This document shows, one piece after another, positions 40,219-59,416 of a DNA stretch of 64,000 nucleotides; the stretch's first letter is position 1, and the number at the start of each line of letters is the position of its first letter. Source of the DNA: Nitratireductor mangrovi (GTDB taxonomy: Bacteria > Pseudomonadota > Alphaproteobacteria > Rhizobiales > Rhizobiaceae); NCBI RefSeq assembly GCF_007922615.2, contig NZ_CP042301.2, forward strand, positions 1,426,001 through 1,490,000. The letters run 5' to 3'. The translations under genes were made by a program, and so were the position numbers. The notes below the pieces were generated by a model, which did no database searches, was not told the DNA's origin, and worked only from the letters and a program-made list of their open reading frames with translations.

Positions 40219-40253
40219 ATCGCGCCTCGGCGTGAGTCCCAATAGTCGAGTGT

Positions 40254-40267: not shown

Positions 40268-40443
40268 TCCCGGATGGGAGCTATCCATTATTTAGCAAAT
40301 GCTTTCGTTGCTGAAAGATGCTGCCGTGAAATTTTGGCGCTGGAGCAACGGCTGGGCGGGGCAGAGGCCCGTCTATTACGCATTTTTCCGCGCGGGTTTT
40401 TGCCAGCATGGCGAACATGCCATACCTGATGCCGACCTTCGCG

Positions 40444-40449
40444 AAGGAG
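40444..40449 (+). promoter_or_regulatory. Ribosome binding site that fixes a GTG start
   Basis: AAGGAG lies 5 bases before GTG 40455 and decides the start of the following membrane protein; the frame is open further upstream, but that stretch is hydrophilic and has no such site. Confidence 0.7.
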
Positions 40450-40454
40450 CGGGA

Positions 40455-43345: not shown

Positions 43346-43353
43346 TCGCATCG

Positions 43354-43384
43354 CGCCGGCCGCCCCTGGCGGGGAAGGCCGGCG
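43354..43384. terminator. Large stem-loop between the binding-protein and permease genes
   Basis: CGCCGGCC (43354-43361) pairs with GGCCGGCG (43377-43384), and the interior CCCC and GGGG around TGGC extend the stem. It begins 8 bases after the stop of the binding-protein gene. Such elements commonly protect the upstream transcript and reduce read-through, so that binding protein exceeds permease. Confidence 0.6.
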
Positions 43385-43479
43385 CCGCCGTTTGGCGGCT
43401 GCAATAGTCCTGCCTGCATATCGAACCGGATCGTCCCGCGCCATTGCCCCGGCCCGGGAAGCGTGAGAGCCACGACTGA

Positions 43480-44361: not shown

Positions 44362-45323
44362 TGGGGCGGGGTAGCGCATCAAGGGTGCTGGCGCTGCATC
44401 TGGCGGTGCTGGCCGTGCTTGTCGCACTGTATTTCGTTCTGCCCGATTACCACCGTGGCATCGTTCCGCGCGTTCTGGTGCTGGCGGTGTTCGCCGCCGG
44501 CTACAACATCCTTTTCGGCTATACCGGGCTCCTGAGCCTCGGCCATGCCATGTTTTTCGCCGCCGGCATCTACGGCGCCGGCATGCCGGCATATTACCTC
44601 GACTGGGGTGTTTTGCCGGCCTTCGCTGCTGGAATCGCCTCGGGCGCCGTGCTGGCGCTGGTGGTCGGCTTCCTGGCGCTCAGGACCAGCGGCGTCGCCT
44701 TCATGATAGTTACCATGATGTTTTCGCAGGTCTTCTATCTGACGACGCTCTATTTCACGACCTGGACGCGCGGCGAGGAAGGTCTTGTGATCGGGCAGCA
44801 ACTCAGGCAGTTCGTGATCGGTGGCACGATCGTCGACCTGACCGACCCGGCAACGCGCTATTTCGCCGCCGTCATCCTGTTCGGCGTCGTGCTGTTTGCC
44901 AGCCTTGCCGTGGCCCGCGCACCTTTCGGCCGTGTCCTGATCGCGATCCGCGAGAACGAGGAACGCGTGCGCATGCTGGGCTACGACGTGTTCCTCAACA
45001 AGCTCGCGGCCGTGGTCATTTCCGGCGTCTTCTGCGCGGCGGCGGGTGCCGCCTACGCGCTTTTGTTCGGCTATGTCGGTTCGACCTTTGCCTCGATCCA
45101 GTATTCGATCCTGCCGCTGCTCTGGGTGCTGCTCGGCGGCGCGGCGACGACACTCGGGCCGCTCATCGGCACAGTCTTCATGTTTTATGTCGTCGACATC
45201 ACCTCCGGCTACACCTCGGCCTACCTGCTGATCGTCGGCATAGCGTTGATCCTGCTGGTGCTTTTCTTTCCCAAGGGGTTCCTGGGCACTGTCCGCGAAA
45301 GGTGGCTGCGATGGCTGCCGTGA
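44361..45323 (+). CDS. ABC importer permease, LivM type
   Basis: The 320-residue polytopic protein has the LivM hallmarks [20 protein letters not shown] and the coupling loop [26 protein letters not shown]. It shares one base with the LivH-like stop and overlaps the start of the ATPase gene by 13 bases, so the importer genes are translated in series. There is no fused ATPase domain. Confidence 0.93.
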
Positions 45324-46072
45324 ACCCGCTGCTCGTCACCAGAGGGTTGTCGCGCTCATTTGGCGGCCTGCGTGCTGTCGACGATGTCGATTTCTCGCTG
45401 CAGGAAGGTGAAATCCGGGCCGTGATCGGCCCCAACGGTGCCGGCAAGACCACCTTCGTCAGCCTGGTCTGCGGGCGGATCGCGCCCAGTGCCGGCAGCG
45501 TGTCTTTCGACGGTCGCGACGTGACCCGGCTTCCCGCGCACCGGCGCGTGAAGCGGGGCATCGCCTATACCTTTCAGATCACCTCGATCTTCGCCAATCT
45601 CAGCGTCTTCGACAATGTTGCCCTTTCGGTGCAACGGCGCCTGATCGATCATGCCGAGCGTGGGGGGAGCCGTTTTTCAGCCGCCGATCTGAGGCACGGC
45701 GTCGAGGAGGCGCTGCAACGGGTCGGCCTTCATGAACGCGCCGACCAGCCGGCCGGCAAGCTGGCCTATGGCCATCAGCGACTGCTGGAGGTGGCGATGG
45801 GGCTGGCGCTCGCCCCGAGGCTGCTTATCCTCGACGAGCCGACACAGGGGCTCTCCGACGCCGAAATAGAAAGCTTCATCAAGCTGGTACGCGAGATCGC
45901 GCAATCGGCCACCGTGCTTCTGATCGAACACAACATGCCGGTGGTCATGGCCCTTGCCGGTCGTATCACGGTCATGAACGCCGGTGCGATCCTCGCCGAA
46001 GGCACGCCCGACGAAATCCGGACCAACAGCGCCGTCCAGCATGCCTATCTGGGAACTGCGCAAGATGGCTGA
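45311..46072 (+). CDS. ABC importer ATPase, LivG type
   Basis: The 253-residue nucleotide-binding subunit has Walker [11 protein letters not shown]-loop region [14 protein letters not shown], a degenerate signature [15 protein letters not shown] as is normal for LivG proteins, Walker [12 protein letters not shown] and the H-loop HNMPVV. AAAGG 8 bases upstream supports the ATG at 45311, which lies inside the livM-like gene; a GTG at 45302 is an alternative. It works with the LivF-like ATPase. Confidence 0.93.
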
Positions 46073-46772
46073 CGCGCTTTCCGTCAATCAGATCAATTGC
46101 TTCTATGGCGATGTGCAGGTCCTGCGAGACTTCGATCTGACATTGCGCAAGGGCGAAGTGCTCTGCCTGCTCGGCCGCAACGGGGCCGGCAAGACCACGA
46201 TGCTGAAGGCGATCATGGGCCTTGTGCCGGTGCGCTCGGGCACGATCATGCTGGGTGAAACCGACCTGGCACGCCTCGCCGCCCACGACATCCCGCGCAA
46301 GGGCGTCGCCTATGTGCCGCAGGGCCGGCGGCTGTTTTCTGAACTCAGCGTCGCAGAAAATCTCGATATCGGGCTGATGGCGCGCGCCAAGGGCGTGTCA
46401 ACGCGCGAGGCGGTGCTGGAACTCTTCCCGGTGCTGCGCGAGCGCTTGCGCCAGCGCTCCGGTACGCTCTCCGGTGGCGAACAGCAGATGCTCGCCATGG
46501 CGCGGGCACTGTGCGTCGAGCCGGAGGTGCTCCTGCTCGACGAACCGACCGAGGGGCTGATGCCGTCGATGATCGCGCGCATCCGCGAGGCGGTTGCCGA
46601 ATTGCGCAGTCGCGGCGTCTCGACCATCCTGGTCGAGCAGCGGGTCGATGCGGTGCTGCCGATCGCCGACCGCGTCGCCTTCATCGAAAACGGCGTCAAC
46701 CGCGATGTTGTCGGCGTGGAAAAGCTGCGCGCCGACCCGGCACTGGTCCATCATTACGTCGGCGTCGGCTGA
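46065..46772 (+). CDS. ABC importer ATPase, LivF type
   Basis: The 235-residue ATPase has Walker A GRNGAGKTT, the LivF-typical GVAYVPQGRRLFSELSV, signature LSGGEQQMLAMARAL, Walker B VLLLDEPTEGL and an EQR motif where LivG has the H-loop HNM. It overlaps the LivG-like gene by 8 bases and completes the importer. The minus-strand nicotinamidase gene ends 18 bases after it. Confidence 0.93.
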   Translation: MADALSVNQINCFYGDVQVLRDFDLTLRKGEVLCLLGRNGAGKTTMLKAIMGLVPVRSGTIMLGETDLARLAAHDIPRKGVAYVPQGRRLFSELSVAENLDIGLMARAKGVSTREAVLELFPVLRERLRQRSGTLSGGEQQMLAMARALCVEPEVLLLDEPTEGLMPSMIARIREAVAELRSRGVSTILVEQRVDAVLPIADRVAFIENGVNRDVVGVEKLRADPALVHHYVGVG

Positions 46773-46789
46773 GACCCCGAGACATTAGC

Positions 46790-47389
46790 TCAGGCGAGCC
46801 GCACGCCGGCATCCTTCATCATGCTGGTCATCGCGGCGAGCGAGCCGCCGAGGTCGATCGCGCGGCATGCGTCCATCACCACCGTGACCGAAAAGCCTTC
46901 ACGGGCGGCGTCGAGCGCCGAATAGGCGACGCAGAAATCCGTCGCCAGCCCGACCATGGTGAGGTCGGAAAGGCTGCGCTCGCGCAGATAGCCGGCGAGG
47001 CCGGTCGGGGTCTCGTGATCGTTCTCGAAGTATGCCGAATAGCTGTCGATTTTCCGCCGAAAACCCTTACGAACCACGAGTTCCGCCTTGGTCCATTCGA
47101 GCTTTTCGTGAAATTCGGCGCCTCTCGAACCCTGAATGCAATGGTCCGGCCACAGGGTCTGCTCGCCATAGGGCATGGTCACCGTCTCGAACGGGTTCTT
47201 GCCCTCATGCTCGGAGGCGAAGCTCGAATGGCCGGCGGGGTGCCAGTCCTGGGTGAGGATCACGTGTTCGTGCTCGACAATCAGTCGGTTGACCAAGGGC
47301 ACGATCTCGTCGCCGCCGGCAACCGCCAGCGCACCGCCGGGACAGAAATCGTTCTGAAGATCGATCACGATCAGGGCTTTGTCGGCCAT
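46790..47389 (-). CDS. pncA: Nicotinamidase (isochorismatase-fold)
   Basis: PncA hydrolyses nicotinamide to nicotinate and ammonia. The 199-residue protein has the catalytic triad Asp10 (VIDLQNDFCPGG), Lys108 (VVRKGF) and Cys153 (ATDFCV), and metal ligands Asp48, His50 and His83 (TQDWHPAGH, WPDHC), which mark true nicotinamidases within the fold. It could serve ordinary NAD salvage. However, it is divergent from the molybdenum-hydroxylase operon across 125 bases holding a candidate operator, which suggests it feeds nicotinate into degradation. Confidence 0.94.
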   Translation of the reverse strand: MADKALIVIDLQNDFCPGGALAVAGGDEIVPLVNRLIVEHEHVILTQDWHPAGHSSFASEHEGKNPFETVTMPYGEQTLWPDHCIQGSRGAEFHEKLEWTKAELVVRKGFRRKIDSYSAYFENDHETPTGLAGYLRERSLSDLTMVGLATDFCVAYSALDAAREGFSVTVVMDACRAIDLGGSLAAMTSMMKDAGVRLA

Positions 47390-47476
47390 CCGTCTCCCCT
47401 CGGGTTTTTTGTCGGTCGGGTGCTTTTGGCGACCATGGACAGACGCGTCGGCTTTGACAAGTGGCGGCGTCCTGAT

Positions 47477-47496
47477 ATCATTTGCATACGAATGAT
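47477..47496. promoter_or_regulatory. Palindrome between pncA and the molybdenum-hydroxylase operon (candidate MarR operator)
   Basis: These 20 bases have ATCATT/AATGAT arms around an imperfect core. The central 14 bases (47480-47493, ATTTGCATACGAAT) match the site at 58454-58467 at 12 of 14 positions. It lies about 20 bases before the FAD-subunit start and about 90 bases before pncA, so a bound repressor could block one or both. Confidence 0.6.
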
Positions 47497-47514
47497 TTCG
47501 TGACGCCGGTCACA

Positions 47515-48405
47515 ATGACAAGAGAAGCCGGCAGCGTGTTGGGAACGGCCACCTTGGCGCACTACGCACGACCGCGGGAACTGCAGGAGGCGCTCGATCT
47601 GCTGTCGGCCGATCGCTGGCGGGTGCTTGCCGGCGGCACCGACTTCTATCCGGCCCAGGGCGCTCGGCCGATCCGCGAAAATATCCTTGATATCAATGGA
47701 TTGCGCGAACTTCGTCACTTTGCCGAGACGGACCGGCATGTAGTCTTCGGTGCCAGGACGACCTGGACCGACATCATGCGCCGGCACCTGCCGACATCTT
47801 TCGACGCGCTCAAACTCGCCGCGCGCGAGGTCGGCTCGATCCAGATCCAGAACGCCGGCACCGTTGCCGGCAATCTCTGCAATGCGTCGCCCGCGGCCGA
47901 CGGCGTGCCGCCGCTATTGGCACTCGACGCCGAGGTAGAACTGCGCTCGCTGGATGGCGTCCGGCATGTGCCGCTCGCCGATTTCATCCAGGGCAACCGC
48001 AAGACGTCTCTGGCGCCAGACGAACTGATGACGGCCATCCGCATCCCGAAGGCTTCGACCGGTGGCCGCTCGAGCTTCGTCAAGCTTGGGGCCCGGCGCT
48101 ATCTGGTGATCTCGATCGCCATGGTCGCGGTCCGCGTCGAGATCGGGGAGGGCGGCCTGGTCGAGAATATCGCGATTGCCGTCGGGTCCTGCTCAGCCGT
48201 GGCACAACGGATGACGACGTTGGAACAGGCCCTTCGCGGCCGGAGTTTGGCGGCAATCGACATCACGCCGAACCTGATGCCGGAACTCGACCCGATCGAC
48301 GACGTGCGCGGCAGTGCCGAATACCGGCGGCTGGCCGCAGCCGAAATCGTTGACCGCGCGATCGCGATGGCAACCGACCCCACCGCAAGGGGGCTCGCCG
48401 CATGA
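47515..48405 (+). CDS. Molybdenum hydroxylase FAD-binding subunit (CoxM/XdhB-like)
   Basis: The 296-residue medium subunit passes electrons from the 2Fe-2S clusters to FAD. It has the two FAD motifs of the family, AGGTDFYP (39-46) and NAGTVAGN (113-120) followed by LCNASPAADG, and the C-terminal CO_deh_flav_C segment. The start is uncertain: no good ribosome site precedes ATG 47515, and GTG 47500 or GTG 47538 are possible. The stop overlaps the next start (ATGA). First gene of the operon of six coupled genes. Confidence 0.92.
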   Translation: MTREAGSVLGTATLAHYARPRELQEALDLLSADRWRVLAGGTDFYPAQGARPIRENILDINGLRELRHFAETDRHVVFGARTTWTDIMRRHLPTSFDALKLAAREVGSIQIQNAGTVAGNLCNASPAADGVPPLLALDAEVELRSLDGVRHVPLADFIQGNRKTSLAPDELMTAIRIPKASTGGRSSFVKLGARRYLVISIAMVAVRVEIGEGGLVENIAIAVGSCSAVAQRMTTLEQALRGRSLAAIDITPNLMPELDPIDDVRGSAEYRRLAAAEIVDRAIAMATDPTARGLAA

Positions 48406-51152
48406 GCCTGCCGGTCGAGAACATCGCCTTCGATCTCAACGGCGAGCGCGTCTCGGTGACCGCTCCGCCGGTGACGCGGCTTTCCAACCTCTTGCGCGAC
48501 CATCTGGGCCGCACCGGCACCAAGGTCGGCTGCGATGCGGGCGACTGCGGCGCTTGCACCGTGCTCCTTGATGACGAGCCGGTTTGCGCCTGCCTCGTGC
48601 CGGCCGCCAGTGCGGCGGGTGCGAAGGTGCGAACCGTTGAAGGGCTGGGCAACGGGGCGCTCTCGGCCGTGCAGGACTCGTTCCTTCGGCATGGCGCCGC
48701 GCAGTGCGGCATCTGCACACCCGGTTTCCTCGTAGCCGCCACGGCGCTGCTCGAACGCAACCCTGTACCGAGCGAGGCCGAAGTCATGGACGCGCTTGGC
48801 GGCGTGCTGTGCCGCTGTACCGGCTATCGCAAGATCGTCGCGGCTGTAATGAACGCGCATCTGCCGGATCGCGGCCACAACAACCCGCCTGCCAACGGAC
48901 ACGCGGTCGGCATGCCGGTCGTCCGGCTTGACGGCGTGCCAAAGGTCACCGGCCGCGACCTTTTCGGCGCCGACGAACGGCCGGCCGAAGCGCTTTCCGT
49001 GCTGGTTGTGCGCTCGCCACACTGGCACGCGGCGTTTTCGTTCGGCGATCTCGAAGCGTTCGTTGGCCAACATCCGGGTGTGGTTGCCGTTTTTACAGCC
49101 GCCGACATTCCCGGGAAGAATTGCTTCGGCGTCATTCCCCCCTTCGCCGACCAGCCGGCGCTGGCGGAAGGCCGGGCGCGCTTTCGCGGCGAGGCGGTGG
49201 CGCTCATTGCCGGCGAACGCGATGCCATCGCGGCACTCGACATTGCGGACTTTCCGATCGAATGGCGTGAACTGCCGCATGTTCTCGAACTCGGCGCAGC
49301 GCTGGCTGCGGGCCAGAGGCCGGTCCACGACAGCCGCCCAGGCAATGTCCTGACCCAGGGTCTTGTCGAATGCGGCGAGCCGGAGGCGGCCCTGGCTGCC
49401 TCTCACCTCACCGTGACCGGCGCGATCGAGACGGCCTATGTGGAACATGCCTATATCGAACCGGAAGCCGGCTATGCCTTTCTCGACGGGGATATTCTCG
49501 TGATCAAGGCCTGCACGCAGGCGCCCTACATGGACCGCGACGACACGGCGGCGGTGCTTGGCCTGCCGCCGGAGAAGGTGCGCATCGTGCCGACAGCGAC
49601 CGGAGGCGGTTTCGGCTCCAAGCTCGACGTCTCGCTGCAGCCGCTGATCGGGCTGGTGGCCCTGAAGACCGGACGCCCGGCGGCATTGGCATACACACGC
49701 TCGGAATCGATGGCCTCGACCACCAAGCGACACCCGGCGTCGATGCGGGCGACGATCGGCGCCGACCGCGACGGCAACATCACCGGAATGATTTTTTCGG
49801 GTGATTTCAACACCGGCGCCTACGCCAGTTGGGGACCGACGGTAGCCAATCGTGTACCGGTCCATGCCTCCGGACCCTACGTCACGCCGAACTACCGCGC
49901 GGTCGGTCGCGCGATCCACACCAATGGGCCTGTCTCCGGCGCCTTTCGCGGTTTTGGTGTGCCGCAGGCGACGATCATGCAGGAAACGCTCTATGACGAA
50001 CTGGCCGGCAAGTTCGGCATCGATCGCCTCGAATTTCGGCTGAGGAACGCATTGCGTGACGGGTCAAACACCACCGCCGGCCAGCTTCTCGCCGAGGGTG
50101 TCGGCATTGCCGCGTGCCTGGAAACGCTGTCGCCGCATTGGCGTCGCGCCTGTGCCGACGCGGCAAGCGCCAATGCGACAGCCAACGGCTCGCCGCTGCG
50201 CAGAGGCGTCGGCATTGCCTCGTGCTGGTATGGCTGCGGCAACACTTCACTGCCGAACCCGTCGACCATCAGGGTCGGGATTTCGGTAAGCGGCGAGGTC
50301 GTCCTGCATCAGGGCGCCGTCGATATCGGGCAGGGCTCCAATACGGTGATTGCCCAGATCTGCGCCGACGCGCTCGGGCTGCCGCTGGCCGATTTCCGGC
50401 TGGTAGGCGGCGACACGGCCATCACGCCTGACGCCGGCAAGACGTCCGCATCGCGCCAGACCTTCGTCACCGGCAAGGCGGCCGAGAAGGCAGGGCGGGC
50501 GCTGCGAGAGAATATCCTGCGCTTCGCCAATGTCTCGGCCGGCGCATCGATCGCCATCGAAGGAGGGGCGATCGTCGTGACGGAAGGCGGTGAGCGGCGG
50601 CGGATCGAGCTGGCCAAGCTGCCTGTCGACGAACGCGGATACGTCTTTTCAGCTGAGGAAACCTACGACCCGCCGACCGCGCCGCTCGACGAAAAAGGGC
50701 AGGGGATCCCCTATGCGGTCTATGGCTACGGCGCACAGATCGTCGAACTCGAGGTCGACTGCCGCCTCGGCACGGTGAAGCTCTTGAAGATCACCGCCGC
50801 GCACGATGTGGGTCGCGCCATCAACCCGCAACTTGCCGAGGGCCAGATCGAGGGCGGCATCGCGCAAGGGATCGGCATGGCCTTGATGGAGGAATACGTT
50901 CCCGGTCGCACCGAAAATTTGCATGACTACCTGATCCCGACCATCGGCGACGTGCCGGAGATCGAAACCATCCTGGTCGAGGTTGCCGATCCCGAGGGGC
51001 CATTCGGCGCAAAGGGGCTGGGCGAACACGTGCTGATCCCGACCGCGCCGGCGATCCTCAACGCCATCCGAGACGCGACAGGCGTGCTGGTTACGAAGGT
51101 TCCGGCGACGCCGAGCCGGGTGCTGGCGGCGATCCGGGAGGCCGGCCGGTGA
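48402..51152 (+). CDS. Molybdenum hydroxylase, fused 2Fe-2S and molybdopterin subunit
   Basis: This 916-residue protein joins what are usually two subunits. Residues 1-165 form the iron-sulfur subunit, with a ferredoxin-type cluster (Cys44, Cys49, Cys52, Cys64) and an alpha-helical cluster (Cys102, Cys105, Cys137, Cys139). From about residue 170 it is the molybdopterin subunit, with GGGFGSK from 401, GAFRGFGVPQ and the base-catalyst Glu875 in AKGLGEHV. The CO dehydrogenase loop AYRCSFR is absent, so this is a hydroxylase of an aromatic N-heterocycle or aldehyde, not a CO oxidase. With an Hnr-like gene next, hydroxylation of nicotinate at C6 is the leading guess; xanthine-type substrates remain possible. 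Confidence 0.92.
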   Translation: MSLPVENIAFDLNGERVSVTAPPVTRLSNLLRDHLGRTGTKVGCDAGDCGACTVLLDDEPVCACLVPAASAAGAKVRTVEGLGNGALSAVQDSFLRHGAAQCGICTPGFLVAATALLERNPVPSEAEVMDALGGVLCRCTGYRKIVAAVMNAHLPDRGHNNPPANGHAVGMPVVRLDGVPKVTGRDLFGADERPAEALSVLVVRSPHWHAAFSFGDLEAFVGQHPGVVAVFTAADIPGKNCFGVIPPFADQPALAEGRARFRGEAVALIAGERDAIAALDIADFPIEWRELPHVLELGAALAAGQRPVHDSRPGNVLTQGLVECGEPEAALAASHLTVTGAIETAYVEHAYIEPEAGYAFLDGDILVIKACTQAPYMDRDDTAAVLGLPPEKVRIVPTATGGGFGSKLDVSLQPLIGLVALKTGRPAALAYTRSESMASTTKRHPASMRATIGADRDGNITGMIFSGDFNTGAYASWGPTVANRVPVHASGPYVTPNYRAVGRAIHTNGPVSGAFRGFGVPQATIMQETLYDELAGKFGIDRLEFRLRNALRDGSNTTAGQLLAEGVGIAACLETLSPHWRRACADAASANATANGSPLRRGVGIASCWYGCGNTSLPNPSTIRVGISVSGEVVLHQGAVDIGQGSNTVIAQICADALGLPLADFRLVGGDTAITPDAGKTSASRQTFVTGKAAEKAGRALRENILRFANVSAGASIAIEGGAIVVTEGGERRRIELAKLPVDERGYVFSAEETYDPPTAPLDEKGQGIPYAVYGYGAQIVELEVDCRLGTVKLLKITAAHDVGRAINPQLAEGQIEGGIAQGIGMALMEEYVPGRTENLHDYLIPTIGDVPEIETILVEVADPEGPFGAKGLGEHVLIPTAPAILNAIRDATGVLVTKVPATPSRVLAAIREAGR

Positions 51153-52681
51153 GCGAGCTTTCGGAACGCTTCGAGCCGTCGACCGCCAAACCGGACACAG
51201 GCGGTGAAAAGGTTCGTTGCGATGCGTGCCCGGTCATGTGTTACATCGCCGAGGGGCGGACCGGCGCCTGCGACCGTTACGCCAATCAGGCGGGCCGCAT
51301 CGTGCGCACCGACCCGCTGACCATCCTGCATCATGCCGAGGAGCGCGGCGGCGAGGTGGTGCCGTTCCTCGACGGTACGGAGGATTGGGACGGGAACCTC
51401 GTCAATACCGGCCGCCGCTTCGTCACCGCGATCGGCGCAGGCACCACCTATCCCGACTACAAGCCGGCGCCGTTCATCATCAGCCAGGAAGTCGAGGGCG
51501 TCGATCTCGTCACCGTGGTGACGGAGGGCATCTTCTCCTATTGCGGCGTCAAGGTGAAGATCGACACCGACCGCCATCTCGGCCCGGAGACGGCGACAGT
51601 GCGCGCCAATGGCGAGGCGGTCGGCCATGTCACGACGGCCGAATACGGCTCGCAGATGCTGTCACTGGGAGGCGTGCGTCATTTGACCGGCGGCTCCAAG
51701 GCGGAAGGGCGGGTCACCTGCGACACGCTGATGACGCTTTGCAACCGGCAGCCGATCGAACTGAAAATCGACGATGGCGCCACGGTGATCGTGGAGGCCG
51801 GCAAGGCGCCGGTGATCGACGGCAAGCAGGAATACCGCATGCGTGTCGGTTGCGGCTCGGCGACGATCGGAATGTTCGCCACCCAGTGGCGCGACCTCGT
51901 CGACGAAGTGGTCGTCGTCGACGATCACATCACCGGGGTCGTCTCGGAACACCAGGCCGGCAAGGTGCTCGGCTGGGAGGATACCGGCATCAAGATCGTC
52001 GGCCGGCGTTCCACGCCCGGGCGCTATTTCAAGGTCTCCGAGCCCGGTCTCGGCTGGGGCGGCACGACGATTTCCGATCCGCTCGAAATCCTGGGACCCT
52101 TCAACGCCAAAAAGGGCGCCCGCGAAGGCCTGTCGCTGCTGATGGTGTCGACCACCGGCGAGCAGTTCGGCTACTACGAGCTCGACCACGACCTCAAGCC
52201 GGTTGAGAAGCCGTTCCCGGAACGCCTCAGAAAATCGGTCGAACTCATTGAAGATAATTGCGAACCGGCCCTCTGTACTGTGCTTTTCATGGGCGGTGCG
52301 GGCGGCTCGCTGCGGGCCGGCGTCACCGAGAACCCGGTGAACCTCACCCGCTCCGTGCAGGGGTTGAAGACTTACGTCACCTGCGGCGGGGCGCCGGTCT
52401 ATGTCTGGCCCGGCGGCGGCATCACCATCATGGTCGACGTGACGCGGACGCCTGACAACGCCTTTGGTTACGTGCCGACGCCGGCGCTGGTGGCGCCCAT
52501 CGAGTTCACCTTGCGCCGCGACGATTATGTCCGGCTAGGCGGCTATGAGGCCGAAATCAGGACCGTCGAGGATATCGTCGCAAGGGGCGGAGAGTATCTT
52601 AACGAACGTGCGGGCGCGGCAGCGCCGGCAGGCAATGAGTGGCCGCCGTTGCAGCAGCTTCGCCGGGATCGCGGCCGATGA
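51149..52681 (+). CDS. 6-hydroxynicotinate reductase-like iron-sulfur protein
   Basis: This 510-residue protein resembles those annotated as 6-hydroxynicotinate reductase (Hnr; EC 1.3.7.1), the ferredoxin-dependent enzyme of Eubacterium barkeri that reduces 6-hydroxynicotinate to 1,4,5,6-tetrahydro-6-oxonicotinate. Visible features are an N-terminal Cys24-x2-Cys27-x3-Cys31-x9-Cys41 motif that could hold a 4Fe-4S cluster, and a long domain with glycine-rich loops such as LFMGGAGGSLRAGVTENPVNL. The start is GTG 51149 overlapping the upstream stop (GTGA), and its own stop overlaps the next start (ATGA). The assignment is from memory of the family; activity in an aerobic rhizobial strain is inferred. 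Confidence 0.75.
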   Translation: MSELSERFEPSTAKPDTGGEKVRCDACPVMCYIAEGRTGACDRYANQAGRIVRTDPLTILHHAEERGGEVVPFLDGTEDWDGNLVNTGRRFVTAIGAGTTYPDYKPAPFIISQEVEGVDLVTVVTEGIFSYCGVKVKIDTDRHLGPETATVRANGEAVGHVTTAEYGSQMLSLGGVRHLTGGSKAEGRVTCDTLMTLCNRQPIELKIDDGATVIVEAGKAPVIDGKQEYRMRVGCGSATIGMFATQWRDLVDEVVVVDDHITGVVSEHQAGKVLGWEDTGIKIVGRRSTPGRYFKVSEPGLGWGGTTISDPLEILGPFNAKKGAREGLSLLMVSTTGEQFGYYELDHDLKPVEKPFPERLRKSVELIEDNCEPALCTVLFMGGAGGSLRAGVTENPVNLTRSVQGLKTYVTCGGAPVYVWPGGGITIMVDVTRTPDNAFGYVPTPALVAPIEFTLRRDDYVRLGGYEAEIRTVEDIVARGGEYLNERAGAAAPAGNEWPPLQQLRRDRGR

Positions 52682-53556
52682 ACGGGCCGCAGATCGCCTG
52701 GCTGGCCGACGGAAAGCGGCTGCATTTGAACCATGGGCCGATCGATCTGATCATGCGGGCGTTCGGCCCGGTGGAGGAAGTCGACGCGGCCTACCGACAG
52801 GCTGCCAGGCGCTTCAGGACCATTCTCGGCGAACTTGTCGGGGAACTCGGCGAGTTACGCCGACCGGTGCAACCCGTCGTGCGGATCTTCAGCGGGTCCA
52901 CGGCGCGTCGCATGGAGGCTGCGGCCTGCCGTCACGCGTCGCGGTTCGTCACGCCAATGGCGGCGGTGGCCGGCGCCGTCGCCGACGAAATGCTCGCGGC
53001 GTTGGTCGAGGGCCGAACGCTCGAACGTGCTTTTGTCAACAATGGTGGCGATATCGCAATCCACCTGGCGCCTGGTGAGGCGCTCGACCTTGCCATTGCC
53101 GGCACCGGCCACGGCATTTCGGACCGCGTTCGCGTTGCCGCGAACGAGCCGGTGCGCGGCATCGCCACTTCGGGCTGGCGCGGCCGCAGCCACTCCCTGG
53201 GCATCGCCGACGCCGTGACGGTGCTGGCCCGGGACGCGGCGTCCGCCGACGTCGCGGCAACGCTGATCGCCAACGCAGTCGACCTGCCCGGACACCCCGC
53301 CATCAGCCGCAGGCCGGCCCGTGAGCTGGCACCCGACAGCGATCTCGGCGAGCGGCTGGTGACGACCGGCGTCGGGGACTTGACCGCTACCGATGCTAAC
53401 GAAGCGCTGGAGCGCGGGCGGGATGTGGCCGAAGACTTTCGCCGCAGGGGCCTGATCGTTTCGGCAGCGCTTTTCCTGGCCGGTGAGGCGCGCCTGTGTG
53501 GAGAGCTTGCCGACCTGCCGATCCGCTTCTTGCAAGAGGAACTGCTTCATGCCTGA
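52678..53556 (+). CDS. UPF0280 family protein (ApbE-like fold suspected)
   Basis: The 292-residue protein fits the UPF0280 family, whose function is unknown. Landmarks are the RHASRFVTPMAAVAGAVADEML segment, AFVNNGGDIAIHL, the GIATSGWRGRSHSLGIADAVTVLA stretch and NAVDLPGHP. The NNGGD and ATSG...H...GIADAVTV patterns recall ApbE flavin transferases, where equivalents bind FAD and metal, so a flavin-handling role is a reasonable but untested guess. It overlaps the Hnr-like stop by 4 bases and the next gene by 8 bases, which ties it to the same pathway. The open frame continues upstream, but ATG 52678 is the coupled start. Confidence 0.8.
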   Translation: MNGPQIAWLADGKRLHLNHGPIDLIMRAFGPVEEVDAAYRQAARRFRTILGELVGELGELRRPVQPVVRIFSGSTARRMEAAACRHASRFVTPMAAVAGAVADEMLAALVEGRTLERAFVNNGGDIAIHLAPGEALDLAIAGTGHGISDRVRVAANEPVRGIATSGWRGRSHSLGIADAVTVLARDAASADVAATLIANAVDLPGHPAISRRPARELAPDSDLGERLVTTGVGDLTATDANEALERGRDVAEDFRRRGLIVSAALFLAGEARLCGELADLPIRFLQEELLHA

Positions 53557-54133
53557 TTTCGCGATCCGCAAGATTGCGGTGTTCGCCGAGGAGATTTTCC
53601 ATGATGGCGGCAAGCCCGCCGCCGAGCCGCGCCGCAGGGCCGCGGCAATGGCGCTGGTGAAGAACCCCTTCGCCGGCGGCTACGCCGCCGAACTGGAAGC
53701 CGCGATGGATGACCTGAAGCCGCTTGGAGCGACGCTAACCGAACGGCTGATTGCCGCACTGGGCGGCGACCTTGGCGCGATCGACGGCTACGGCAAGGGC
53801 GCCATTGTAGGCAGCGCCGGCGAGATCGAGCACGGCGCCCTGTGGCATGTTCCCGGCGGCTATGCGATGCGCGAGCGGCTGCCGAAGTCGAAGGCGATCG
53901 TGCCCTCGGCAATGAAGGTCGGCGCGTTCGGCTCGAGCCTCGACGTGCCGCTCGGCCATACCAACGCCGCCTATGTGCGCAGCCATTTCGACGCCATCAC
54001 CGTGTCGGCACCGGATGGCCCGCGTCCGGACGAGATCCTGTTCTGCCTGGCGATGAGTTGCGGCCCGCGCATCCACGCCCGCATGGGCGGGCTTTCGGCA
54101 GGCGACGTCAAGGGCGAGGACGGGCTCAGATGA
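53549..54133 (+). CDS. 'Amino acid synthesis' family protein (DUF1185-like)
   Basis: The 194-residue protein starts FAIRKIAVFAEEIFHDGG and contains RRAAAMALVKNPFAG, then a cluster of glycines (GYGKGAIVGSAGEIEHGAL), PSAMKVGAFGSSLDVPLGH and SAPDGPRPDEILFCLAMSCGPR. This is the pattern of the Pfam family named AA_synth, whose name reflects an old proposal and whose reaction is unknown. Members often sit beside UPF0280 genes, as here. No cofactor motif is obvious; the conserved Lys, His and Glu residues suggest a ring-amide enzyme rather than a regulator. A ring hydrolase or isomerase role in this pathway is possible but speculative. Confidence 0.78.
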   Translation: MPDFAIRKIAVFAEEIFHDGGKPAAEPRRRAAAMALVKNPFAGGYAAELEAAMDDLKPLGATLTERLIAALGGDLGAIDGYGKGAIVGSAGEIEHGALWHVPGGYAMRERLPKSKAIVPSAMKVGAFGSSLDVPLGHTNAAYVRSHFDAITVSAPDGPRPDEILFCLAMSCGPRIHARMGGLSAGDVKGEDGLR

Positions 54134-54588
54134 GCGCGCCCACCAAACCGGTGGTGGTGACCATGGAAAGCGGCGATCCCGAGGAGTATCGCCTTCAGGA
54201 TCAGATCGGATTTGCCTTGCGCAAAGCCAACCAGCGCCACCTGTCGATCTTCGGTGTGCGTATCGGCGACATGACGCCGCCGCAGTTTGCAGCGCTGGCG
54301 AAATTGCACGAGGTCGGCGAAACCTCGCAGAACCAGCTCGGCAGTCTGGTCGCCATGGACGCGGCAACCATCAAGGGCGTGATCGACCGCCTGAAGGCGA
54401 GGGGGCTCGTCGAACTCAACGGCCATAAGGAGGATCGCCGGCGTCTGGTCGTCAACCTGACCGCAGCCGGCCGGGCAAAAATTGCCGAACTGCTGCCGCT
54501 GGCCGCCGAAATCAGCGAGGAGACGCTGGCCCCGCTGACCGCGCGAGAACGCGCAACACTGCTCAGACTGCTGGCGAAATTATCCTGA
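54130..54588 (+). CDS. MarR-family regulator, last gene of the hydroxylase/reductase operon
   Basis: The 152-residue protein has the MarR fold: MTPPQFAALAKLHEVGETSQNQLGSLVAMDAATIKGVIDRLKARGL covers the HTH, and DRRRLVVNLTAAGR is the wing. MarR proteins of N-heterocycle pathways commonly repress until the hydroxylated intermediate binds. Its start overlaps the preceding stop (ATGA), so it is made with the pathway enzymes and would give autoregulation. It is the best candidate to bind the palindromes at 47480 and 58454. It ends 20 bases from the convergent hyuB stop. Confidence 0.92.
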   Translation: MSAPTKPVVVTMESGDPEEYRLQDQIGFALRKANQRHLSIFGVRIGDMTPPQFAALAKLHEVGETSQNQLGSLVAMDAATIKGVIDRLKARGLVELNGHKEDRRRLVVNLTAAGRAKIAELLPLAAEISEETLAPLTARERATLLRLLAKLS

Positions 54589-54608
54589 CGCCGGTCGTTT
54601 GAGGCGGG

Positions 54609-56297
54609 TCAATCCGCTGTGCCAAACTTTTCGCGTGCGTCCTCTTGCGAATAATACCCCAGTTCCACATCGCGCCGGACCAGCGCCGGGTCACGCTGGC
54701 GCGGGTCGCCGTAGCCGCCGCCACCCGGCGTGCCGACGCTGACGCGGTCGCCGGGCTTCAGCGGGATGTCCTGCTCCTTGGACAGGTGTTTCGGTACATA
54801 GGCGGCGCCGTCGCGCCACACGGTGACGGTGTTGACGCCACCATCGGCGCCGCCGAGCACGCCCTGGGGGCCGAAACGGCCATGGTCCATGACGAAGGAG
54901 GCGCGCGCCTCGCCGCGCAGCAGCTCGACCTCGTAGGCGAGCCCGAAACCGCCGCGATGCTTGCCCGCGCCGCCGGAGCCCTCACGCAGTGCGTAGTGGC
55001 GATAAAGGATCGGAAAGGCCTGCTCCATCACCTCGATCGGCGGCGACTTGGAGATGCCGATTGTCGAGCAGCCATTCGAAAGTCCATCATGATCGGCGTT
55101 GCCGCCATAGCCGCCGCCCGAGATCTGGTACATGACGAAGCCGCGTCCGCGCGCCGGGTCGTGGCCGCCGAGCGCGAAATTGCCGGATGAGCCGGCAGGC
55201 GCAGCCGTCACCTTTTCCGGCAGCGCCTGTACCAGGGCGGCGAACACTGACTCCGCGATGCGTTGCGACACCTCCGCCGCGCAGCCCGAGACCGGGCGCG
55301 GGTAATGTGCGTCGAGGAAAGTGCCTTCCGGCCTCCTGATCTCCAGCGGCTCGAAAGCGCCGGCGCTCAAGGGCACGTCCGGGAAGATGTGGCGCATGGC
55401 GAGATAGACCGAGGAGATCGTGGTGGCGAGCACGCTGTTCATCGGCCCCGCGCAGGGCGGGCTCGAGCCGGTGAAGTCGAACACCAGCCGGTCGCCGGTC
55501 TTTTCCACCGCAAGCGCGATGGTGAGCGGCGCGTCGACGACACCGTCGGAATCGACATAGGCCTCGGAGCGGTAGGTACCGTCTGGAATTTCGGCGATAC
55601 GCACCCGCATCTGTTCGGCCGCACGACGGCGCAGCTCGGCAATCGCCTCGACGATGGTTTCGTCGCCATAGCGGTCGAGCAGGGCGACCAGCCGGTCCTC
55701 GCCGACCATCAGCGCGGCCGCCTGCGCCTTGATGTCGCCGATGCGCTGGTCGGCGACGCGGATGTTGGAGGCGATGATGGCGTGAATTTCGGGGTCAAGT
55801 TCGCCGCGCTTGAAGAGCTTGACCGGCGGCAGCCGCAAGCCTTCCTGCTCGACCGCCGTGGCAGAAGCGGAAAAGCCGCCCGGCACGGCGCCGCCGATGT
55901 CGGGCCAATGGCCAGTATTCGACAGCCAGCAAAAAATCTTGCCGTGACGCCAGACCGGCCTGGCAAAACGCACATCCATCAGGTGGGTGCCGCCGAGATA
56001 GGGATCGTTGACGATGTAGATATCGCCTTGCTCGGGCGGCAGGCAGCGACCATCGCGGATCATCTCGATCAAGGTGCGAGTGGAATGTTCCATGACGCCA
56101 ACGAAGACCGGCAGGCCGCCCAAACCCTGGGCGATGAGCGAGCCGTCCTCCGCCGAATAGATGCCGTCCGAGCGGTCGTTGGCTTCGGCGATCACCGGGG
56201 AGAAGGCGGCGCGCGAGAATGTCAGGTCCATCTCGTCGCAGACCTGCTGCAGGGCGGCTTGAATGACGGTGAGGGTGATCGGATCGAGTTCGCGCAT
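54609..56297 (-). CDS. hyuB: Hydantoinase B / oxoprolinase family subunit
   Basis: The 562-residue protein is a complete HyuB: start MRELDPITLTVIQAALQQVCDEM, IVNDPYLGGTHLMDVRF, HWPDIGG, and the glycine-rich C-terminal end with GGGGYGDPRQRDP. HyuB partners HyuA in ATP-dependent hydrolysis of cyclic amides such as hydantoins and 5-oxoproline. The start ATG is 3 bases after the hyuA stop. It is convergent with the MarR gene, so the two operons face each other. A lactam intermediate of the N-heterocycle pathway is a possible substrate. Confidence 0.92.
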   Translation of the reverse strand: MRELDPITLTVIQAALQQVCDEMDLTFSRAAFSPVIAEANDRSDGIYSAEDGSLIAQGLGGLPVFVGVMEHSTRTLIEMIRDGRCLPPEQGDIYIVNDPYLGGTHLMDVRFARPVWRHGKIFCWLSNTGHWPDIGGAVPGGFSASATAVEQEGLRLPPVKLFKRGELDPEIHAIIASNIRVADQRIGDIKAQAAALMVGEDRLVALLDRYGDETIVEAIAELRRRAAEQMRVRIAEIPDGTYRSEAYVDSDGVVDAPLTIALAVEKTGDRLVFDFTGSSPPCAGPMNSVLATTISSVYLAMRHIFPDVPLSAGAFEPLEIRRPEGTFLDAHYPRPVSGCAAEVSQRIAESVFAALVQALPEKVTAAPAGSSGNFALGGHDPARGRGFVMYQISGGGYGGNADHDGLSNGCSTIGISKSPPIEVMEQAFPILYRHYALREGSGGAGKHRGGFGLAYEVELLRGEARASFVMDHGRFGPQGVLGGADGGVNTVTVWRDGAAYVPKHLSKEQDIPLKPGDRVSVGTPGGGGYGDPRQRDPALVRRDVELGYYSQEDAREKFGTAD

Positions 56298-56300
56298 GGC

Positions 56301-58373
56301 TCAGTGCCTGACCACTTCGATAATCAGATTTCCGTCACGGTCGGCGCACGCCCTGTCGCCGGGCTCCAGAACGGTGGTCGCGTCCATCTGTTCGACGATG
56401 GCCGGTCCCGCGATTTCGACGTCCAGGGGCAGGCGCTCGCGCGCGTAGACCGGAGTGTCGTGCCATGTGCCGGCAAACCAGACCGGGCGGGTTTCGGTCT
56501 TCGCGTCGTCAAGCCTGTCGGCGCGCCCGGCCGGGTCAATCAATCTCGACAAGTCGAGATCGGCACGCACGCCGATCACAGAGGTGTTGAGGTTCACGAG
56601 ATTGGCGCGGATCTCCGGCAACCTGACCTTGAAGCGGGCGAAGTAGGCCGCTTCAAAAAGCCCCTGCAAGGTCGCGCGGTCGACCTCAGCCGAGGGCAGG
56701 GCGACGTTCAGGAGATGGGTCTGGCCGATGAACTGCATATCGGCGGAATGGATGATATCGACCCGCTCGGGCCGCACGACCTCGGCGTCGATCTGAGCCA
56801 TGCCCTCATCGGCCTGCTGCTTAAGGACCGCGTGGACCTCTTCCATGTCGACACTGGCAACCGGCCGGTTGAGAGTCCTGACGAAATCGTGCCTCAGATC
56901 GGCGACGATGCAGCCGAGCGCATTGGTGATGCCGGGCCGTGCCGGCACGATGACGCGTGGAATGCCGAGTTCGCGGGCGAGTGCCGCCGCGTGCAACGGG
57001 CCGGCGCCGCCGAAGGCGAACAGCGAAAAGTCGCGCGGGTCGTGGCCCTTGGCGACCGAAACCATGCGGATCGCGCCGGCCATCTTGACGTTGCCGATGC
57101 GCAGTACGGCGCCGGCGGCCCCGGTCGCGTCAAGCCCGAGCTTTTCGCCGAGTTTTGCGGCAAAGATCGCCCGCACCCGGTCGATGTCGGCGGCTCCTTC
57201 GACCGAGAGCAGCTTTTTGGCGTTCAACCGGCCGAGGAGCAGGTTCGCGTCCGACACCGTCGGTTCCTCGCCGCCCCGGCCGTAGCATATCGGACCGGGC
57301 ACGGCGCCGGCGCTCTGCGGGCCGATCTCCAGGAGGCCGGCATCGTTGACGCGCGCGATCGAACCGCCGCCGGCGCCGACGGTGTGGACGTCGACCATCG
57401 GCACGTGGATCGGCATGGCGTATTCGATCTCGATCTCGTTGGAGACCGCCGGCTGGCCGTCGCGGATCAGGGCGACGTCGGTGGAGGTGCCGCCCATGTC
57501 GTAGGTAACAACGTTGGCGAAGCCGGCCCGGCGCGCCGTATAGGCCGCAGCCATGACGCCGGAGGCCGGCCCCGACATCACCGTCTTGGCCGCCTCGCGC
57601 GTCACCTTGCCGGCGGAGATCATGCCGCCATTACCGTTCATGACCAGGAACTCGCGCTCGTAGCCGCGGCGGCGTAGTTCGTCGCGCAAACGCAAGACGT
57701 AGCGTTCCAGGATCGGTTGCACGGAGGCATTGACCGCAGCCGTCACGCCCCGTTCGAACTCCCGCGCCTCCGACAGCAGCGAGTGGCCGGTGGTGATGTG
57801 ATCGTTGGGCCATGTCTCGGCCGCGATTTCGGCCGCGCGCAGCTCGTGGGCCGGATTGGCGTAGGCATGCAGGAAATGAATCACCAGAGACTCGCAGCCG
57901 CGCGACAGGAGATCGGCCACCGCCGCGCGCACCTCGTCCTCGTCCAGGTTCTCGCGCACCGCGCCCGAGGCTTCCATGCGCTGCGTCACCTCGACACGCA
58001 GATCGCGTGCGATCACCGGCACGAAGCGCCCGGTCATGCCGTAAGGCTGTGGCCGGGTGCGGCGGCCGAGTTCGATCACGTCGCGGAAGCCGCGTGTGGT
58101 GATCATGCCGGTGCGCGCGAGGCGCCGTTCCAGCACGGCGTTGGTGGTGGTCGTGGTGCCATGTACGATGAGGTCGATCCCGGCAATCGGGAAACCGGTT
58201 TGTGTCAACGCGTTGAGCACGCCACTGGCCTGATTGTCGCTCGTCGTCGGCGTCTTCGCCAGAAGCACCTTGCCGTCGCTGCCTCCGTCGACGAGGATCA
58301 GGTCGGTGAATGTCCCACCGACATCGATGCCCGCGACCGTTCCTTTCAGCGTGGCGGCGTTTTTCTCGTTCAT
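56301..58373 (-). CDS. hyuA: Hydantoinase A / oxoprolinase family subunit (ATP-binding)
   Basis: The 690-residue protein has the ASKHA-type ATPase motifs of HyuA: AGIDVGGTFTDLILVD at the N-terminus, HGTTTTTNAVLER, and YDMGGTSTDVALIRDG, GAGGGSIA and AFGGAGPLHA further on. It forms the ATP-using half of a hydantoinase/oxoprolinase with HyuB. The ATG at 58373 was chosen over the longer open frame because it begins just before the first ATPase strand. About 80 bases upstream is the strongest copy of the candidate operator, shared with the divergent fpr gene. Confidence 0.93.
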   Translation of the reverse strand: MNEKNAATLKGTVAGIDVGGTFTDLILVDGGSDGKVLLAKTPTTSDNQASGVLNALTQTGFPIAGIDLIVHGTTTTTNAVLERRLARTGMITTRGFRDVIELGRRTRPQPYGMTGRFVPVIARDLRVEVTQRMEASGAVRENLDEDEVRAAVADLLSRGCESLVIHFLHAYANPAHELRAAEIAAETWPNDHITTGHSLLSEAREFERGVTAAVNASVQPILERYVLRLRDELRRRGYEREFLVMNGNGGMISAGKVTREAAKTVMSGPASGVMAAAYTARRAGFANVVTYDMGGTSTDVALIRDGQPAVSNEIEIEYAMPIHVPMVDVHTVGAGGGSIARVNDAGLLEIGPQSAGAVPGPICYGRGGEEPTVSDANLLLGRLNAKKLLSVEGAADIDRVRAIFAAKLGEKLGLDATGAAGAVLRIGNVKMAGAIRMVSVAKGHDPRDFSLFAFGGAGPLHAAALARELGIPRVIVPARPGITNALGCIVADLRHDFVRTLNRPVASVDMEEVHAVLKQQADEGMAQIDAEVVRPERVDIIHSADMQFIGQTHLLNVALPSAEVDRATLQGLFEAAYFARFKVRLPEIRANLVNLNTSVIGVRADLDLSRLIDPAGRADRLDDAKTETRPVWFAGTWHDTPVYARERLPLDVEIAGPAIVEQMDATTVLEPGDRACADRDGNLIIEVVRH

Positions 58374-58453
58374 GCCGGATTTCCGAAACGCTCGACTACC
58401 GATCGGCAGCAATTTGGAATGGCTCTCTAGGGTCGCACCTTGACCCGATATTC

Positions 58454-58467
58454 ATTTGTATACTAAT
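58454..58467. promoter_or_regulatory. Palindrome between hyuA and fpr (candidate MarR operator, best copy)
   Basis: ATTTGTATACTAAT is a 14-bp palindrome with one mismatched pair and a perfect GTATAC centre. It lies about 80 bases before hyuA and about 120 bases before fpr. It matches 47480-47493 at 12 of 14 positions. The surrounding stretch is much more A/T-rich than the genome average here, as expected of promoter DNA. Confidence 0.6.
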
Positions 58468-58588
58468 AAATTTCGCGAGCAAGGGACGTCCGTCGGGATT
58501 CTGTTTCGTCGCCGTGCCCCGCCACTGAAATCCGTAGATCGGCCCGGCCGGGGCCGCCATGGCAATCTCCCGCAAAGGTGAAAAACGG

Positions 58589-59416
58589 ATGACGAACGTC
58601 GCCGCCAACACGAACGAGATCGGCCGCAAGCAGGACTTCCCGATTCCTGCCGGTGTCCATGCCGAAAGGGTCGTTTCGGTGAAGCATTACACCGACCGGC
58701 TTTTCTCGTTCCGCATCACCCGGCCGCAAAGTTTTCGCTTCCGCTCCGGCGAGTTCGTGATGATCGGCCTGCCGAATGCCGAAAAGCCGGTGTTCCGCGC
58801 CTATTCGATCGCCAGCCCGGCCTGGGACGAAGAGCTCGAGTTCTATTCGATCAAGGTGCCGAACGGCCCCTTGACCTCAGAACTGCAGAAGATCGCGCCC
58901 GGAGACACGGTGCTGTTGCGGCAGAAGTCGACCGGAACGCTTGTCAACGACGCGCTGAGCCCGGCCAAGCGGCTCTACATGATCGCGACCGGCACCGGGA
59001 TAGCACCCTTCGCCAGCCTGATCCGCGATCCCGACACCTATGACAAGTTCGACGAGATCGTGCTAACCAATACCTGCCGCGACGTTGCCGAATTGCATTA
59101 TGGCAACGAGCTGATCGAGGCGCTGCGCGCCGACCCGCTGATCGGCGAACTGGTGGCTGAGCGCGTTCGTTATTATCCGACCACGACGCGCGAAGATTCG
59201 CCGGTCAAGAACCGCATCACGACACTGATCGAGAGCGGCCAGCTTTTCTCCGACCTCGGCGTCGAACCGCTCGACGCGGCCCATGACCGGGTCATGATCT
59301 GCGGCTCGCTGGACATGATCCGCGACGTCAAGGAACTGGTGGAGAAGGCGGGCCTCGCCGAAGGCTCGAATGCGGCGCCGGCCGACTTCGTCGTCGAACG
59401 CGCCTTCGTGGGCTGA
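58589..59416 (+). CDS. fpr: Ferredoxin-NADP(+) reductase
   Basis: The 275-residue flavoprotein exchanges electrons between NADPH and ferredoxin or flavodoxin. It has the FAD motif RAYSIASP and YSIKVPNGPLTSEL, the NADP region MIATGTGIAPFASLIRDP and TNTCRDVAELHY, and a C-terminal FVVERAFVG tail typical of bacterial Fpr. ATG 58589 follows AAAGGTG 7-8 bases upstream; the frame is open to 58559. Such genes are housekeeping in Rhizobiales, but this one is divergent from hyuA across a candidate operator and could supply reduced ferredoxin to the Hnr-like enzyme. Confidence 0.94.
   Translation: MTNVAANTNEIGRKQDFPIPAGVHAERVVSVKHYTDRLFSFRITRPQSFRFRSGEFVMIGLPNAEKPVFRAYSIASPAWDEELEFYSIKVPNGPLTSELQKIAPGDTVLLRQKSTGTLVNDALSPAKRLYMIATGTGIAPFASLIRDPDTYDKFDEIVLTNTCRDVAELHYGNELIEALRADPLIGELVAERVRYYPTTTREDSPVKNRITTLIESGQLFSDLGVEPLDAAHDRVMICGSLDMIRDVKELVEKAGLAEGSNAAPADFVVERAFVG

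Follow-up and report, generated by a model that had tools for sequence, protein, structure and literature searches.

What opens the ring in a nicotinate-type degradation cluster that has no enamidase gene? The question is raised by a 64,000-nucleotide stretch of the Nitratireductor mangrovi genome (NZ_CP042301.2, 4.86 Mb in a single contig), referred to here as the window. A nicotinamidase (PncA), a molybdenum hydroxylase and a homolog of 6-hydroxynicotinate reductase (Hnr) are encoded in it together with UPF0280, DUF1185 and MarR proteins, the two-subunit enzyme HyuAB and a ferredoxin-NADP reductase-like protein (Fpr). The cluster is probably a nicotinamide/nicotinate regulon of the reductive type, which runs through 1,4,5,6-tetrahydro-6-oxonicotinate (THON), with an unrelated ATP-dependent lactamase, HyuAB, in place of the enamidase.

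The ten genes named in an earlier note on this DNA, and the five-gene importer placed upstream of them, were borne out by the list of open reading frames and by family scans as intact frames, at the same places or a few codons off, with the importer in the order described (Table 1). From the FAD subunit through MarR, every start overlaps the preceding stop. The host genome contains a single Hnr, a single DUF1185 protein and one HyuA match at E ≤ 1e-180. The note had also reported that the enamidase is absent from the window, and no relative of it was found even in the whole genome at E ≤ 1e-40. Comparison of Hnr neighbourhoods, which the note had proposed, was carried out on the best 80 of at least 592 loci (L002–L081) from a scan of named species genomes. 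The order importer-pncA-hydroxylase-hnr-UPF0280-DUF1185-marR recurs in most of these 80 where the contig reaches, many close relatives have the importer next to the hnr operon, and hyuBA and fpr often come after marR; the more distant loci are without pncA or have marR placed elsewhere. This recurrent order is more than chance. The nearest relatives by Hnr within this set are Nitratireductor, Aquibium and Mesorhizobium, such that the term rhizobial used in the note holds taxonomically and not otherwise. Hnr was also found in 26 plasmid records, including Sulfitobacter, Rhizobium and Neorhizobium, five of which were read with annotation.

The distribution of ring-opening enzymes among Hnr-bearing genomes bears directly on the question. 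One of the plasmid loci, L085, carries a true enamidase in its Hnr cluster (376 bits to PDB 2VUN), and HyuAB is missing from the 29 kb that were read. The L085 enamidase and the window HyuA (56301–58370 in all queries, first Met omitted) served as queries against all 75 genomes with Hnr in an order sample of 297. Ortholog cut-offs (at least 60% identity for the enamidase, at least 57% for HyuA) were set after the score gaps had been seen (821 versus 757 bits for HyuA), and HyuA proteins of 51–54% identity in G035, G059, G144 and G221 are therefore counted as absent. With these cut-offs, 42 genomes have the enamidase only, 26 HyuA only, three both and four neither (Fisher p 8e-13, uncorrected for relatedness); by genus, the sample divides into 21 with enamidase only, nine with HyuA only and four other. 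A phylum sample of 397 genomes added 17 new ones with Hnr, which have either the enamidase (nine) or HyuA (eight), with none having both or neither. HyuA at this identity is present in 29/75 Hnr-positive versus 1/222 Hnr-negative genomes (G167), and the enamidase in seven of the 222, all from one family (f15). Other lineages have hyuAB in a single run that includes hnr or the hydroxylase genes. HyuAB thus most likely takes over the enamidase step, as judged from these distributions and the motifs described below. A thiamine diphosphate enzyme resembling acetolactate synthase and benzoylformate decarboxylase adjoins the Hnr operon of G059 (L145:3829-5469, minus strand), a genome without enamidase or close HyuAB; it could be a later decarboxylation step.

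The hydroxylase varies as well. Across 89 loci, the xanthine dehydrogenase (XDH) type occurs with the enamidase in 20 and with HyuAB in 28, and the NicAB type in 16 and one, respectively; of the remainder, three XDH loci have both openers, three have neither, and 18 show no hydroxylase. NicAB is additionally found with HyuAB on plasmids L083 and L084. Because both hydroxylase types occur with both openers, the two steps seem to have been exchanged separately.

THON is a six-membered lactam, and the HyuAB sequences are consistent with an enzyme of lactam hydrolysis. HyuA scores higher with N-methylhydantoinase (468 bits) and caprolactamase 6yra (372 bits) than with carboxylases (at most 314 bits), and the top match of HyuB is 6yra (269 bits). 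Caprolactamase is described as having (PMC8453981) ATP motifs in the A subunit and a metal site in the B subunit. Both features of an ATP-dependent lactamase are present in the window proteins, as ASKHA phosphate/adenosine motifs in A and an Asp-His-Asp-His site in B. HyuA motifs DVGGT16, DMGGT291 and GAVPGP355 are found in all covering rows (19–20 and 28–29), and HyuB residues H105, D108 and H130 in 18/18 and 26/26 rows; the first metal Asp is D41 (20/20) or D44 (19/20), which the alignment to CapB does not separate. An ATP-dependent system that splits valerolactams, which are six-membered lactams, is reported (PMC11033972).

Evidence on the substrate comes from the hydroxylase and the regulator. 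The molybdenum domain of the fused subunit (residues 169–575) scores 253 bits to the Eubacterium barkeri nicotinate dehydrogenase (3hrd_A), compared with 156 bits for the next chain, and indicates, by sequence only, a molybdenum-dependent nicotinate hydroxylase as found in reductive nicotinate clusters. The MarR protein scores 90 bits against BpsR, with another regulator (2nnn, 131 bits) as its top PDB match. BpsR binds 6-hydroxynicotinate through Tyr15, His23, Arg26 and His32 (PMC6837509), which align with Y20, F28, R31 and H37 of the window MarR, such that three of the four are kept. Y20 and R31 are invariant in 58/58 loci (a count that includes the window's own copy, L001) and in 74/74 loci of the second set, with H37 in 58/58 and 52/74. 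His37 is kept in 34/34 enamidase-type loci and in the window's own clade.

A palindrome, ATTTGTATACAAAT, matches the 64 kb twice when up to three mismatches are allowed, against 0.20 expected, and each of the two divergent promoter regions has one of these sites. Since one of them overlaps the listed TTG start of the FAD subunit gene (moFAD), translation more probably begins at the ATG at 47515. The box was derived from these two sites, and relatives alone test it, being kin of the window; L002–L081 and the wider set of 89 loci (L091–L179) overlap in genera. Only loci with the gene start inside the fetched stretch were counted, over 250 bp upstream in the 80 loci and 300 bp in the wider set. 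L002–L081 (1.46 Mb) contain 53 boxes with at most two mismatches, and 49 of these precede a cluster gene by no more than 250 bp; for 60 control palindromes matched in composition, the median count was 0 and the highest 6. Boxes precede pncA in 31/43, moFAD in 27/49, hyuA in 14/19 and fpr in 15/18 loci, and are rare before marR (2/57) and hnr (1/79). One genus has hyuAB-fpr on another contig or about 70–100 kb away in six genomes, and all six carry the box in the fpr-hyuA gap. The wider set has 33 boxes (fpr 5/11, pncA 8/15, moFAD 7/49), with at most 3 for the controls. MarR is inferred to bind the palindrome. Another MarR-type regulator is encoded close to the importer (39718–40242, minus strand); the scan with up to three mismatches shows no box upstream of it. 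The regulon suggested in the earlier note gains support from the box common to both promoter regions. Its nicotinate-type substrate is likewise favored, by the 3hrd similarity, the BpsR-like MarR, the box that pncA shares with the hydroxylase operon and the fit to the cluster described for Azorhizobium and Bradyrhizobiaceae, and nicotinate is the substrate best supported by the sequences.

Hnr itself matches no Pfam family above cut-off, and its identity as a homolog rests on the name 6-hydroxynicotinate reductase that its close relatives carry at NCBI. For its alignment, rows that covered less than 85% or contained stops were removed, which left 77/80 usable; thinning at 93% identity reduced these to 57, to which the window was added. 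In the resulting 58 rows nine Cys are invariant, and a tenth (C376) is found in 54. The UPF0280-type protein, named after annotated relatives, matches NCBIfam PRK04334.1-2 (380 bits, cut-off 290). UPF0280 and Hnr co-occur in 73 genomes of the order sample, with Hnr alone in two and UPF0280 alone in one, and UPF0280 adjoins hnr in 17/17 further loci. The UPF0280 model has the ApbE fold, and Ser165 and Asp191 are conserved in 56/56 rows (55 of 69 thinned rows, plus the window). UPF0280 most likely serves Hnr, presumably in the loading or attachment of its flavin.

DUF1185 was found in 37/40 Hnr-positive and 8/40 Hnr-negative genomes (80 of the 297). Of 87 matches (one fragment of a split gene in G118 was left out), 46 lie within 2 kb of UPF0280; of the other 41, 26 have no enamidase-like gene within 10 kb and 15 do, Hnr-negative genomes included, with six of the 15 at a distance of 36–84 bp. 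The window's subfamily is present in 30/32 Hyu-type and 27/50 Ena-type loci, and a subfamily like that of L085 (17129–17713) in 0/32 and 41/50, respectively. From this subfamily distribution and the enamidase-like neighbours, DUF1185 appears to track the ring-opening enzyme no less closely than it tracks Hnr. Its fold resembles that of Bacillus chorismate mutase and has a conserved His/Arg/Glu cavity (PMC2954203). As a guess from the chemistry, DUF1185 might be an enamine deaminase or a formylglutarate decarboxylase. Seven f15 genomes (G090, G118, G203, G220, G252, G277 and G290) contain enamidase orthologs (65–70% identity) without Hnr, with tandem DUF1185 genes nearby in both that were examined (G118 and G277), an enamide/lactam module outside the nicotinate pathway. 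In G004, G018, G167 and G221, distant enamidase-like genes (38–44% identity) lie directly beside a DUF1185 gene (36–59 bp gap) and perhaps act on another lactam.

The sequences themselves show the gene content and order, the co-occurrences, a near mutual exclusion of the two ring openers, the shared box, the motifs and the fold of the UPF0280 model. In the scheme that we propose, where every reaction and substrate is a prediction, the importer would bring in a pyridine compound, PncA would convert nicotinamide to nicotinate, and the XDH-type hydroxylase would convert nicotinate to 6-hydroxynicotinate. Hnr, with electrons supplied via the Fpr-like reductase, would reduce this to THON. HyuA would then activate the THON lactam by phosphorylation and HyuB hydrolyze it to a ring-opened enamine or 2-formylglutarate. 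UPF0280 would load or attach the Hnr flavin, and DUF1185 would act at the ring-opening stage, in enamine deamination or formylglutarate decarboxylation. MarR would repress both transcription units through the palindrome and be released by 6-hydroxynicotinate or a close relative.

A number of observations, set out in this paragraph and the next, count against parts of this scheme. Both ring openers are present in G089, G189 and G224, and neither in G029, G059, G144 and G221; the last three belong to one genus and have only HyuA of 51–52% identity, a sort also found in Hnr-negative genomes. In an Hnr tree of 89 of the 92 Hnr-positive genomes (omitting G121 and G165, with Hnr fragments, and G310, with a split Hnr), the Ena/Hyu states change at least four times. 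Among three well-supported independent pairs differing in HyuA, 2.8 on average are opposite in enamidase and none differ the same way; among seven pairs differing in enamidase, 2.5 are opposite in HyuA and 4.5 show no HyuA difference. The sign test is not significant (p 0.25) because the pairs are too few. HyuA and HyuB score 508.5 and 315.7 bits, far below the NCBIfam CapA/CapB equivalog cut-off of 1000. The pathway could be the same and THON be opened by another enzyme, such as DUF1185 or an unlinked amidohydrolase, with HyuAB acting on a side or later lactam, as the place of DUF1185 in the cluster and beside enamidase-like genes elsewhere would allow, together with the three genomes of one genus that have Hnr without enamidase or close HyuA. 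We consider this unlikely: DUF1185 also occurs in 41/50 loci of enamidase genomes, the E. barkeri enamidase alone opens and deaminates THON, and HyuA like that of the window goes with Hnr and is seldom found together with the enamidase.

The substrate and the operator are also affected. The MarR ligand His37 is replaced in other HyuAB-type lineages (22 losses: Ala in 17 and Asn in three HyuAB-type loci, Asn in two HyuAB-bearing plasmid loci), which may therefore sense or degrade something else; one of the 17 Ala37 loci is in a genome that also has the enamidase. In favor of the scheme, pncA is still in the fetched stretch of L110, L157 and L158 despite the changed His. The box is absent before livK (0/19 in L002–L081, 0/12 in the wider set), is found in only 1/5 further fetched hyuA loci, and at up to two mismatches precedes hyuA in 5/25 and ena in 5/22 loci of the wider set, in which the motif, being seen less often, has probably drifted. 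The F28 that replaces a BpsR ligand His, the losses of H37 and the many substrates taken by molybdenum hydroxylases of this family would suit degradation of another N-heterocycle (a pyridine carboxylate, a hydroxypyridine or a lactam-forming alkaloid) by the same chemistry. This is less probable still, given a PncA within the same regulon, a molybdenum domain closest by far to nicotinate dehydrogenase, the Y20, R31 and H37 kept in the window's clade, and a gene set that fits the nicotinate cluster of Azorhizobium and strain SG-6C. For one part of the scheme the balance is closer. UPF0280 has no invariant His in the stretch read (56 rows) and so lacks the ApbE Ser-His-Asp catalytic set, R170 being invariant and position 172 variable. 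The canonical acceptor motif (DxxSTGAST, searched as D-x-x-[ST]-G-A-[ST]) is in 0/58 and 0/89 Hnr rows, and a longer D-H-I-T-G-x-x-[ST] occurs 88 times in the 89 tree rows. There is an even chance that UPF0280 is another Hnr-dedicated factor, such as an iron-sulfur or folding helper, a flavin pyrophosphatase or a reductase subunit. The full combination, with ring openers swapped under one operator (the enamidase, a metal amidohydrolase, in some lineages and the ATP-driven lactamase in others), UPF0280 as a new cytosolic branch of the flavin transferases acting on a non-canonical site of Hnr, for which D-H-I-T-G-x-x-[ST] is a candidate, and DUF1185 handling the ring-opened product, is put forward only tentatively.

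Table 1. Features of the cluster and its importer (window coordinates)
Feature	Position	Strand	Basis or remark
LIV/urea-type ATP-binding cassette (ABC) importer	42038..46772	+	nearest models are urea / branched-chain amino acid importers, all below cut-offs
Importer substrate-binding protein	42038-43345	+	
Importer permeases	43480-44361, 44361-45323	+	
Importer ATPases	45311-46072, 46062-46772	+	
PncA nicotinamidase	46790..47389	-	NCBIfam NF008623 equivalog, 216 bits, cut-off 174
Palindromic box ATTTGCATACGAAT, pncA-moFAD gap	47480..47493	.	2 mismatches to ATTTGTATACAAAT; same place in relatives
Molybdenum hydroxylase FAD subunit (moFAD), XDH-type	47482..48405 (listed TTG start)	+	PF00941, PF03450
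Fused 2Fe-2S / molybdopterin subunit, predicted nicotinate 6-hydroxylase	48402..51152	+	Pfam; molybdenum domain nearest PDB relative 3hrd
Hnr-like 6-hydroxynicotinate reductase	51149..52681	+	names of close relatives; Cys conservation
UPF0280-type protein, predicted Hnr maturation partner	52678..53556	+	ApbE flavin-transferase fold
DUF1185 protein, predicted at or just after ring opening	53549..54133	+	PF06684, 222.5 bits, cut-off 27
MarR regulator, BpsR-like	54130..54588	+	Y20, R31, H37 kept; F28 replaces His
HyuB, metal-site subunit of predicted ATP-dependent lactamase	54609..56297	-	H105, D108, H130, D41 or D44
HyuA, ATPase subunit of predicted ATP-dependent lactamase	56301..58373	-	DVGGT, DMGGT, GAVPGP motifs
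Palindromic box ATTTGTATACTAAT, hyuA-fpr gap	58454..58467	.	1 mismatch to ATTTGTATACAAAT; same place in relatives
Ferredoxin-NADP reductase-like (fpr), predicted Hnr electron supply	58559..59416	+	PF00175, PF00970; NCBIfam NF008178 135 bits, below cut-off 390

Upstream of the importer, a 529-residue membrane-protein-like frame (40299–41888) has no Pfam match; its relatives (36–75% identity) adjoin the importer in many fetched clusters, and it may be part of uptake. Further away, a 747-residue protein (23270–25513) has a fused major facilitator superfamily/spermidine-synthase-like region (NCBIfam NF037959, 49 bits, cut-off 40). The genes scanned between 251 and 33397 include a peptidyl-prolyl isomerase, CTP synthase, enolase, a 2-oxoacid dehydrogenase E2, a flavin disulfide reductase and two sensor kinases, one NtrY-like. 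These are housekeeping genes and point to chromosomal core rather than a mobile island.

The outline of the pathway is old; what is added are specific candidate roles for HyuAB (on THON), UPF0280 (on the Hnr flavin) and DUF1185 (on the ring-opened product), the latter two being uncharacterised families with solved structures. If the proposal is true, HyuAB would be the ring opener in the many species without the enamidase, and the hydantoinase, oxoprolinase and acetophenone carboxylase labels on such pairs would be sharpened. The clusters would also illustrate how unrelated enzymes replace one another step by step within a single pathway.

The pathway is known and the cluster type was already published in 2012, such that the locus is less new than the earlier note had thought. 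Shettigar 2012 (PMC3511419), which cites Kitts 1989 and 1992 and Alhapel 2006, describes a nicotinate cluster in Azorhizobium caulinodans, Bradyrhizobium japonicum, R. palustris HaA2 and strain SG-6C. It encodes the first three enzymatic steps, two conserved proteins of unknown function and a putative ABC importer for nicotinate, with an SG-6C Hnr homolog 42% identical to E. barkeri Hnr. The window shares with it the nicotinate hydroxylation genes, Hnr, the two conserved unknowns, the importer and the THON route; however, the three steps described there include ring opening, whereas the window has HyuAB and no enamidase. The genomes of family f32 in our sample, at a guess Bradyrhizobium, have the NicAB-type hydroxylase, in contrast to the XDH type of the window. 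The window also shares with the E. barkeri nicotinate fermentation a relative of nicotinate dehydrogenase and, by the names of its relatives, Hnr. It differs in that the third enzyme, the enamidase, is absent from its genome at the threshold given above and the Fe-S and molybdenum parts, which are separate chains in E. barkeri, are fused; no gene of the methyleneglutarate branch was seen among the genes scanned. UPF0280 resembles the ApbE/Ftp flavin transferases (PMC12052999) in whole fold, GGD motif, Ser and Asp, and differs in the missing catalytic His, with the canonical acceptor motif missing from Hnr. The MarR protein shares the Tyr, the Arg and one ligand His with BpsR of Bordetella (PDB 6pco and 6pcp; PMC6837509), the other His being Phe. 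HyuAB shares the ATP motifs in A, the metal site in B and the cyclic-amide hydrolysis family with the caprolactamase CapAB of Pseudomonas jessenii, but is below the caprolactamase cut-offs, and its predicted substrate is a six-membered enamide lactam. The comparisons suggest a well-supported variant of a known pathway, which carries three predictions of gene function.

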